A stretch of 39,457 nt of DNA from an archaeon. Its GTDB lineage: Archaea > Thermoproteota > Nitrososphaeria > Nitrososphaerales > Gagatemarchaeaceae. Location: assembly GCA_021851265.1 (NCBI GenBank), contig JAJZIG010000004.1, forward strand, positions 1 through 39,457. The letters run 5' to 3'. Shown piece after piece: positions 26,010 through 29,010 of this stretch; the first letter of the stretch is position 1, and every line of letters begins with the position of its first letter. The position numbers and the translations under genes were made by a program. The notes beneath the pieces are model-generated. The model was not told the DNA's origin. It ran no database searches and saw nothing but the letters and a program-made list of their open reading frames with translations.

Positions 26010-26684
26010 TCAGCGTGGATTTAAGCCTTGGACGGTCCGGTGCCAATCCAAGACAGACATTGCCATCCTGTCGTACGTCTCGGGATCGATTTCTTGAACG
26101 CTCGCCGAGTCGATGTCTATGAGAAACACCATGTGAAGCCTCGCTTGCATCAGGTCATCTATCGAGATTTCAGGCCTGTTGTACGTGACATCGGTCCGCG
26201 CCTTTATTCGAACGGCTTCTTCACGAGTCCTATTCCGAGAGGGCTTGATGAAGAAGCGGGGGAGATCCAACGTGTATGAGGGGGTGGTCCCCAGGGCGAA
26301 CTTACCTGCATATTTGCTATATCGGGCGATCTTACTGGAAATTCTGTTCTGTGCGTACGCCGAAGGTTCCAGGGCCGCTTCGGGTGGTATGAACCCGGTT
26401 TCTATCTCGACTATGAGGCGCCCGTCCCCTCTCGACCCCATCACGTCACAGACCAAGATCTTGTCCAGCCTGTGCTCCACCTTCACATCATATCCTTGTT
26501 TTATCAAGGTCCTGGCGCACACCAGCTCAAGGGCCGAGTGGTTGATCTTCACGAGGTTCTTCCTGTAAAGGTTCACCAGGATGTCTGTGATGGCAAAGAC
26601 TTTCGACCTCACCTCTTCGCCGTCCTCATGGCAGGCTCTCCCGGCCAGTTCATAGAGGTCGTCCTTGAACCTGCGGACGTCCAA
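26010..26684 (-). CDS. Uncharacterised protein with nuclease-like core
   Basis: This 224-residue soluble protein matches no named family that I recognise. The central region YDVKVEHRLDKILVCDVMGSRGDGRLIVEIETGFIPPEAALEPSAYAQNRISSKIARYSKYAGKFALGT has a D...ExE arrangement on adjacent strands, followed by a helix with YAQNR/KIARYSKYAGKFALGT. This is compatible with PD-(D/E)xK nuclease-fold proteins, where the last acidic or lysine position varies. The N-terminal third is helical. It starts at TTG 26684. It lies 73 bp upstream of pyrE on the same strand. The nuclease idea is an inference from a weak motif. Confidence 0.6.
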   Translation of the reverse strand: MDVRRFKDDLYELAGRACHEDGEEVRSKVFAITDILVNLYRKNLVKINHSALELVCARTLIKQGYDVKVEHRLDKILVCDVMGSRGDGRLIVEIETGFIPPEAALEPSAYAQNRISSKIARYSKYAGKFALGTTPSYTLDLPRFFIKPSRNRTREEAVRIKARTDVTYNRPEISIDDLMQARLHMVFLIDIDSASVQEIDPETYDRMAMSVLDWHRTVQGLNPR

Positions 26685-26723: not shown

Positions 26724-27368
26724 TCAGCGTCGCCGGGAGGCGTTCTCGTCAAGTATCCGCTTCACTTCGATGTCTTCCACCTGTCCGAAGTCCTCGTAGA
26801 ACTCTCCGATGGACAAGAACGGCCCTGGGGTCGATAGGCAGACGACCTTGGTCCCATCCTCAGATAGCGCCTGCACGGCATCGGCCGGCGCAACTGGGGC
26901 TGCTATTATCACTTCCTTTGGTCCCCTCTTCTTCACCGACATCACTGCGGCGCTGACTGAGCTCCCGGTAGCGATACCGTCGTCCACTACGACCACCACT
27001 TTGTCGCCCAATCTAGGGTAAGGTGCCGACCCCCGAAGTCTCTGCATTCGATCCTTGACCTCCTCTCTCTTCAGGCGGATCTGGTCGTCCAAGTACGCCG
27101 CGCTCGCCCCCAGCGACTCGGCAGCCTGCCTGTCCATCATCACGTCTCCTTCCTGAGTGACCGCTCCGAGGGCGTACTCGGGTTCCCCTGGTGCTTCGAT
27201 TTTTCTGGTGACCACCACGTCCAGTGGAGCCTCCAACGCCTTGGCCACTTCGTTCGCTACCACTACGCCTCCCCTGGGTATCCCGAGCACGACTACATCT
27301 TCCCCTCTGAGCCTCAGGAGGACCTCTGCGAGGCGCTTCCCTGCGTCCACTCGGTTCTTGTACCGCAA
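26724..27368 (-). CDS. Phosphoribosyltransferase-domain protein
   Basis: This 214-residue protein is of the PRT superfamily. The PRPP-binding loop is VVVVVDDGIATGSSVSAAVMSV, preceded by VVVLGIPRGGVVVANEVAKALEAPLDVVVTRKI, which matches a family of stand-alone archaeal/bacterial phosphoribosyltransferases with an IPRGG...RKI signature (often annotated as 'phosphoribosyltransferase' near stress genes). The C-terminal PVAPADAVQAL and PGPFLSIGEFYEDF are also typical. The substrate base is unknown. It starts at TTG 27368 with a GTTAATAC box about 20-25 bp upstream. It is separated from the pyr cluster by the nuclease-like gene. Confidence 0.85.
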   Translation of the reverse strand: MRYKNRVDAGKRLAEVLLRLRGEDVVVLGIPRGGVVVANEVAKALEAPLDVVVTRKIEAPGEPEYALGAVTQEGDVMMDRQAAESLGASAAYLDDQIRLKREEVKDRMQRLRGSAPYPRLGDKVVVVVDDGIATGSSVSAAVMSVKKRGPKEVIIAAPVAPADAVQALSEDGTKVVCLSTPGPFLSIGEFYEDFGQVEDIEVKRILDENASRRR

Positions 27369-27410
27369 ATATACCCCACCACGGGTATTAACCCTCTGTT
27401 ATTTGGTTGC

Positions 27411-27630
27411 CTCGCCCGGCTCTCAGGAGGGATGTGGCTTTCCTCCGACGGCGGCCTCGTAGCGTTCCTTCACCGCCGCCGTCCCGGTTCGCCCTCGGTT
27501 TGGCCTTCGTGAAGTCCGGGTTCCCCCGGCTCTACGCGCCACCATCCCGCTCGCGGATGGTATCAGGCGCCAAGGCTTTCCCCGGCACCTCTTCCTTTCC
27601 GCGAATCCATCCTTTTCCAGGCCGGACGAG
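27411..27630 (-). ncRNA. Candidate structured non-coding RNA, about 220 nt
   Basis: The ends of this interval pair. On the minus strand CTCGTCCGGC (27630-27621) matches GCCGGGCGAG (27420-27411) as a 10-bp helix with one G-U pair, while on the plus strand the same position would be an A-C mismatch. This favours minus-strand transcription. Inside, GACGGCGGC/GCCGCCGTC (27475-27483 with 27447-27455), CCGGG-GGAA-CCCGG (27516-27529, a GNRA-type tetraloop) and a CCATCC/GGATGG hairpin extended by a GCGCC/GGCGC helix (27536-27570) form more helices. A TATA-like ATTAATAG at 27653-27660 is about 27 bp upstream of the 5' end, the expected distance. Conserved blocks of RNase P and SRP RNA are not visible, so its identity is open. 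Confidence 0.5.
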
Positions 27631-27652
27631 TATCGTATTGAACGGCCTGCTA

Positions 27653-27663: not shown

Positions 27664-28643
27664 TTACTTCGATTCCCAATCTTAGGAATCGTCAGTAGCG
27701 GCTGCCGCCTCCGGCATCACTGGAATTTTCGCCATTGTCGTGAGCCCGCCAAGACCCAGACGTCCCGGCTACGTCTGATTCCCACGTCGGCCAGGCAGAG
27801 CCCACCCTGCGGGATTGCGAGTATCTTCCTGACTATGCCCCCATGGCAGATGCTGGGCTGAACCACACCGCCGAACGATTTTTTGCTTCGAATCTGCCCA
27901 TGAGATTCTGCGCCTGGAAAGGGAATGTGGCACTTCCACCACCGCGAATCGCTCTCGCTCGAGCTCCAGCCCTAATGATGGCCTTCATCTATCTGTGGAC
28001 CGCCGACTCTCATACCGAAGCGGCATAGCCCTCGAGATATCATGCTTGGGCTCAAGCACGTTTCACCAGTCGTCCAAGCCCATAGACTTCGCCACGGAGG
28101 GTTGCCTACATCAGGAGGCCCCAACATTTCGGCGTGACTGATGCGGTGGTAAAGAAAATATTCGTTCTTTGTCAGCAACAAGAGTCAAGCTAGGATAACA
28201 GCGAAGGGCGCCTAGACAGTGTCAGCTCTCTCGCTGTCGGCCCTGCCGATGGCCTGGGGTGCAGCCCGAGTCGACGCCGGTTATACGCGCGAGGCTGGGA
28301 ATATTCCGGGCTGTTCTCGGGTCAGGAGTAGGGCCTTGTGCTCACCAGAGCCCGGTGCGGTCAGGCGACCGCGCCCAGGGAAAGTGGAGGAGCGCGGGCA
28401 GGGGTTGAGAAGCACGAAGGAGGAGGCACGCAGGACGGTAGACGGCCCTTCTTCGGTCGAGTGGGGTGTGGAGCTCCATGCTTAGCACCGCCTCGACCTA
28501 AGAAGAGCCCGAATCCAGAGCGCGGCCAAGCCCACAGTGCGGATTGACCTCTGCTCCGCGGTCTGAAGCCGGAACTGGGCGCTGAATCCTGACCTCGCCT
28601 GACCCTGCACGGGAGCAGACGAAGACAGCGAGGGGCGGCTTCT
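27664..28643. other. Gene-free stretch of about 1 kb
   Basis: The frames here are short, with no family motif, no promoter at the right distance and no shared codon bias. One minus-strand frame (near 27720-27850) reads KILAIPQGGLCLADVGIRRS and could be a decayed coding fragment, but I cannot name it. An AAAGAA/TTCTTT hairpin sits at 28151-28170. No tRNA, SRP RNA or RNase P hallmark was found. It may hold degraded genes or an unrecognised RNA. Confidence 0.4.
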
Positions 28644-28677: not shown

Positions 28678-29010
28678 ATGAGTGAAACGAAAGCTCAGAA
28701 TGGCGACACGGTGTCAGTCCACTACGTCGGGAAATTCCCGGGCGGGAAGGTCTTCGACACTAGTATGAAGGCTGAGGCGATGAAGTCAGGACTATACACC
28801 CCAGCGCGGGACTACAAGCCACTTCAAGTCGTGCTCGGCCAGCACCAGGTGATAAGCGGCTTCGAGGAGGCGCTCGTCGGCATGCAGGTAAACGAAACCA
28901 AGGAGATTACACTCCCTCCGGAAAGAGCCTATGGGAAGACAGGCAGGCATCCCATGGCGGGGAAGACGCTTCAGTTCAGACTGCTCGTGACAAGCATCAA
29001 ACGGCCCTGA
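28678..29010 (+). CDS. FKBP-type peptidyl-prolyl cis-trans isomerase
   Basis: This is a folding catalyst of the FKBP family. The protein opens with GDTVSVHYVGKFPGGKVFDTSM and continues with a helical insert (KSGLYTPARDYKPLQV). It then has VLGQHQVISGFEEALVGMQVNETKEITLPPERAYGKTG, all classical FKBP strands and active-site residues, ending LQFRLLVTSIKRP. The 110 residues are a minimal single-domain FKBP, without the larger insert-in-flap seen in SlyD-like forms. The ATG at 28678 is about 28 bp after a CTTTAATTACC box, consistent with leaderless transcription. It is a cytosolic protein. Confidence 0.93.
   Translation: MSETKAQNGDTVSVHYVGKFPGGKVFDTSMKAEAMKSGLYTPARDYKPLQVVLGQHQVISGFEEALVGMQVNETKEITLPPERAYGKTGRHPMAGKTLQFRLLVTSIKRP

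Follow-up and report, generated by a model that had tools for sequence, protein, structure and literature searches.

The window, a stretch of 39,457 nucleotides, belongs to contig C17 of an assembly of 1.89 Mb, and the close relatives of this genome are archaea that bear the label Thaumarchaeota/Nitrososphaerota. The minus strand of the window carries a phosphoribosyltransferase (PRTase) gene, a gene for an uncharacterised protein that we call c0 and, upstream of both, a compact sequence that almost certainly specifies a structured RNA (Table 1). Two covariance models, R1 (built from 16 sequences) and R2 (built from 30 diverse copies), matched this sequence over their full length with scores of 248.9 and 150.4 bits, respectively.

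Table 1. Features at the RNA locus, in positions of the window.
Feature	Position	Strand	Remarks
RNA gene, ~225 nt	27408..27633	minus	model match 27635-27405; kept in relatives
P1, 5' strand	27621..27630	minus	pairs with 27420-27411; compensatory change in 10/10 pairs
P1, 3' strand	27411..27420	minus	partner of 27630-27621
P2, 5' strand	27610..27613	minus	pairs with 27428-27425; 4/4 pairs covary
P2, 3' strand	27425..27428	minus	partner of 27613-27610
P3 arm	27551..27604	minus	inner hairpin 27590-27580/27575-27565 with conserved GGGAAAGCC loop
P4 arm	27496..27549	minus	9/9 pairs covary
P5 arm	27436..27495	minus	closed by near-invariant core; GC-rich hairpin 27483-27447
TATA-like box ATTAATAG	27660-27653	minus	23-30 nt upstream of 27630, the first P1 base
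PRTase gene	26724..27368	minus	Pfam PF00156, 1e-19
c0, 224 aa, candidate partner	26010..26684	minus	co-occurrence and adjacency

An earlier note on this DNA had proposed that the two ends of the element pair as a 10-bp helix on the minus strand. This terminal helix (P1) was recovered as a pairing of CTCGTCCGGC with GCCGGGCGAG, and it includes one U-G pair that reads A-C on the plus strand, as had also been stated. The minus strand folded at -122.3 kcal/mol, compared to -91.5 +/- 5.0 kcal/mol for shuffled sequences (z -6.1, 0/200), and folding of both strands, as the note had suggested, gave a weaker result for the plus strand (z -3.0). The RNA contains many G-U pairs, which fixes the strand as minus. 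A protein-coding reading of the locus was dropped because no frame was found open in all RNA homologues on comparing them.

We used 30 divergent homologues to derive a consensus structure with RNAalifold. Compensatory double changes, for which the earlier note had suggested searching related archaea, were found in 41 of the 47 predicted pairs. Canonical pairs occupied 90.6% of the pair cells, compared to 69% after shuffling and 32-44% when the partners were slid; both sides had changed in 357 cells, against 119 +/- 10 in the shuffled controls, and the covariation score was 0.686, against 0.277 for shuffled and 0.10-0.18 for slid controls. The compensatory changes thus exceed both kinds of control, as is characteristic of a structured noncoding RNA gene, and comparison firmly supports the minus strand, the predicted structure and its conservation. 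P1 and P2 join the ends of the RNA, and the three arms P3, P4 and P5 follow. Covariation is seen in 7/7 outer and 9/11 inner pairs of P3. The description of the internal loops as GNRA-like was only loosely true, as the conserved loops are of the GGGAAAGCC and GGGAAACC types. The two core strands of P5, GAGGGCnAACC and GGAAAGCC(ACAU), are nearly invariant in the 30 homologues, and the partner of GAGGGCnAACC is also given here as GGAAAGCCACAU. These core pairs barely vary, so covariation provides no test of their pairing.

The RNA was next compared with known families. At the gathering score the window RNA had no match in Rfam, and at E<=5 the only match was an irrelevant fragment of a human lncRNA; neither the RNA nor any homologue reached the gathering score of any Rfam 15 family. 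The archaeal RNase P RNA (RF00373) is similar in that it is archaeal, 200-300 nt long, closed by a long-range helix joining its ends and built around a conserved purine-rich core, and a segment of the window RNA, GGAGGAAAGCC, bears a superficial resemblance to conserved region I of RNase P RNA. The archaeal signal recognition particle (SRP) RNA (RF01857) is likewise a stable autonomous RNA with paired ends. A very diverged RNase P, RNase MRP or SRP RNA would account for such likenesses; however, the window RNA scored above the gathering score of neither RF00373 nor RF01857, no such match appeared even at E<=5, nor was one found in relatives, and the genome encodes a genuine RNase P RNA (182 bits, G000:C100) and a genuine SRP RNA (128 bits, G000:C146) on other contigs. 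The covariance models refute a diverged copy of one of these RNAs, and we regard this explanation as extremely improbable; the impression of the earlier note that no hallmark of RNase P or SRP RNA is visible was correct. Like the window RNA, the orphan structured RNAs described previously (104 motifs, PMC2864571) were defined by covariation and conserved context; the window RNA differs from them in lacking an Rfam 15 family and in having a candidate protein partner. The main text of that study mentions neither Cenarchaeum nor Nitrosopumilus, and no earlier description of the RNA was found in the open-access literature. The suspicion that the sequence may be a new RNA is therefore well supported, and on sequence comparison, including the absence from Rfam, it is essentially certain to represent a new archaeal structured RNA family.

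The earlier note had also placed a TATA-like sequence about 27 bp upstream of the 5' end. This box is present in the window and conserved in homologues: among 41 homologous loci the A+T content peaks at -29 to -24 from the first P1 base, in forms such as TTTATA, TATAAATA and TTAATA, and comparison thereby supports the promoter position. An alignment of relatives from the TATA box on shows almost no variation at the RNA ends and in several stretches between them, and conservation breaks off sharply at both ends of the RNA. The bases after P1 are T-rich in the 41 loci (a fraction of 0.4-0.6 over most of the first 14 bases, compared with 0.27 in the background); in genus g1, which includes the window, the 3' flank has no clear T-run. 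Judged by sequence alone, the 41 loci carry both a promoter of their own and a termination signal; transcription of the RNA is inferred.

The PRTase gene of the pyrimidine (pyr) cluster starts ~40 nt downstream of the RNA in genus g1, an arrangement that would suit a cis-acting leader or riboswitch for this gene and the pyrimidine genes. Direct adjacency is seen only within family f1, however; elsewhere the genes downstream of the RNA are unrelated, differ from family to family and often converge with it (ORF calls are rough in GC-rich loci), so that the RNA holds no constant place ahead of homologous genes that share its strand. In addition, the PRTase gene occurs without the RNA in several relatives, and T-rich stretches directly follow many homologues. 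A riboswitch for the pyr genes was ruled out by synteny, and we give a cis-acting leader very little weight. Because the neighbours vary and are often convergent, and because the PRTase gene occurs without the RNA, an independent RNA gene is much likelier than a leader, and the comparison of loci indicates with high probability that the RNA is such a gene. The PRTase gene is probably a mere neighbour, outside the RNA system.

By BLAST, the sequence was detected in 18 of 61 relatives, mostly of the same genus. The covariance models extended this range considerably: among 400 genomes from the order, 42 had copies by R1, spread over nine families, and among 400 from the class, 74 had copies by R2. 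Nearly all matches were full length, with E values down to 1e-60. Further copies came from outside the class but within the phylum, in G453 (1.7e-37) and G546 (3.8e-11). Our searches covered this one archaeal phylum, from which the family is known, and sequence comparison places the RNA in many lineages of the phylum, which contains the ammonia oxidisers, and in more than one class. Closed genomes with the RNA include G109, G087 and G111, which we take to be those of Nitrososphaera viennensis, N. gargensis and N. evergladensis; the homologue in G109 lies at G109:C1:1608924-1609167, on the + strand of that assembly. Some genomes carry two to five copies of the RNA and one c0 gene. Two copies each were found in G141, G292, G038 and G096, and five (L138-L141, L085) in the Nitrososphaeraceae-like genome G179, which has a single c0 gene; some of the multiple copies may be assembly duplicates.

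A diverged subtype of the RNA was observed in genus g45 (L136, L137, L156, L227-L238). Its core reads GGCAAAGAGGG ... TTGCCATGTCCACC in place of GAGGGCAAACC ... GGAAAGCCACAT, so that the GGAAAGCCACAU core is altered and the RNA appears to be drifting; its promoter, CTATATTGATCnnnTTTTTATTCCAC, is strikingly conserved. Among the loci L132, L151 and L133, the SRP RNA was found ~1 kb away from c0 and the RNA in family f7, and the RNase P RNA ~4 kb away in the N. gargensis-sized genome; both placements are possibly coincidental.

The gene for c0 is found near the RNA in several different arrangements. In family f1 it lies downstream of the PRTase gene, in the order RNA, PRTase, c0 on one strand, and in f2 and f3 it immediately precedes the RNA, with both on one strand. 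The two are convergent in f7, f9, genus g45 of f10, and f32, an arrangement that G546 shows too, and divergent and ~1.3 kb apart in f8. In a panel of 39 genomes, 17 had both RNA and c0, two had the RNA only, four had c0 only and 16 had neither (Fisher p 1.4e-5, or 0.007 without f1, shared ancestry being ignored). The two RNA-positive genomes of the panel without c0, G036 and G052, are 88% and 91% complete. Within f1 the corresponding counts were 12, two, zero and 18 (p 4e-7, ignoring ancestry and with the genes linked), and in one of the RNA-only genomes, G027, the RNA is cut off by the end of the contig. Outside the class, c0 was present in both genomes that are confidently RNA-positive.

The strongest evidence for a partnership is predictive, in that the presence and position of c0 foretold further copies of the RNA. 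With c0 as bait in other classes, a diverged full-length RNA was detected tens of bases from c0 in six further f32 genomes (G444, G458, G472, G486, G492 and G566; E 3e-12 to 4e-9), and within the 43 kb and 129 kb that were searched no other match had an E value under 0.1. At the remaining c0 loci tested in those classes, the RNA model found no copy. The picture is different in the Nitrosopumilaceae-like family f10, in which c0 is nearly universal. Searching beside c0 with R2 in genomes of this kind, one of them N. maritimus-sized, revealed the RNA only in G228, and a model dedicated to f10 (R3) gave one further clear match, in G243; in most f10 genomes, R2 and R3 found no RNA near c0 or genome-wide. 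Either the RNA of f10 has diverged past recognition or c0 works there without it.

These observations bear on two further explanations of the association. The first is that the RNA is a genuine independent gene that acts by itself or together with general RNA-binding proteins, its link to c0 being an inherited neighbourhood within an old cluster of pyrimidine genes. The window contains pyrE, pyrD and pyrF, carB is found in f13, pyrimidine genes lie near the RNA in several families, and c0 occurs without a detectable RNA in most f10 genomes. On the other hand, the linkage is kept in four different arrangements and extends to another class, and the co-occurrence holds also where RNA and c0 are unlinked. 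We consider an inherited neighbourhood a serious possibility, though on balance less likely than not. The second explanation, in which c0 is a nuclease toxin and the RNA its antitoxin or regulator in a system like type III toxin-antitoxin, would explain the patchy joint loss: RNA and c0 are jointly present or absent within f1, c0 is nuclease-like by motif, and some genomes have multiple copies of the RNA. The RNA was seen as one unit per locus and not as an array, however, c0 is near-universal in f10, and it has no match in PADLOC, all of which make a toxin-antitoxin pair very unlikely. A functional partnership between the RNA and c0 is, in our estimate, somewhat better than an even bet.

Residues that are invariant among 29 c0 homologues include N48, H49, S50, E53, E70, D80 and E93-x-E95-T-G, followed by R114, S117, K118, R121 and Y122. 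Judged by eye, the order of these residues suggests a nuclease fold of the PD-(D/E)XK type: c0 shares with such nucleases the acidic order E, D, E-x-E and the predicted alpha-beta-beta-beta-alpha order of secondary structure, but has E-x-E rather than E-x-K and is without a profile match or a confident structural match. Profile searches with c0 gave no significant match in PDB, Pfam, NCBIfam or PADLOC, and one distant relative of c0 matched the nuclease domain of SfsA with an E value of only 0.024, below the cut-off. An AlphaFold model built from seven sequences had a pLDDT of 50, and a fold search with this model returned no useful match. We therefore hold with modest confidence that c0 is a nuclease-fold protein.

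The reading that best explains these data, to which we assign a probability of about 55%, is that the sequence is a new trans-acting structured RNA gene whose product acts as a ribonucleoprotein with c0. The RNA would be transcribed from its own TATA promoter, ending at or near a U-rich stretch, and P1 and P2 would join its two ends to give a closed three-arm RNA. It would then be bound by c0, with its PD-(D/E)XK-like residues (E53, E70, D80, E93-x-E95) and basic R-x2-SK-x2-RY helix, and would serve c0 as a scaffold or cofactor in nucleic-acid processing; the near-invariant GAGGGCnAACC/GGAAAGCCACAU core could be the contact or active site. Such an RNA-protein particle is more likely than not. 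We put at slightly less than even odds the further proposal that it is an ancient ribonucleoprotein of the phylum, in which a new ~230-nt RNA and a new PD-(D/E)XK-like protein family would form an RNA-processing machine or RNA-dependent enzyme of a new kind. Few noncoding RNAs are both large and widely conserved, and in archaea not many are known apart from rRNA, tRNA, RNase P, SRP and guide RNAs. The present RNA combines covariation over many families with an invariant core and a protein whose presence and place foretold additional copies. As it seems to occur in ammonia-oxidising archaea that are in culture, its function can be tested directly, and if the ribonucleoprotein reading is true, the machine is present in model ammonia oxidisers and has gone unnoticed.

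Several other elements were observed near the RNA in the window. A second conserved intergenic element, at 28139-28330, contains the near-invariant blocks CCGGAATATTCCC, AACAGCGAGAGAGCTG, CTGTTAT and TTGCTGACAAA. It was found in 17 aligned loci, including relatives that do not have the main RNA beside the PRTase gene; it has no match in Rfam, and its consensus fold is better on the plus strand. The region upstream of the RNA, 27690-28010, is possibly a decayed coding sequence, as short patches align with relatives and the matching place in the relative L031 seems to hold an open frame. Finally, a small ORF at 28678-29010 on the plus strand, beside the long intergenic region, resembles by eye an FKBP-type peptidyl-prolyl isomerase.
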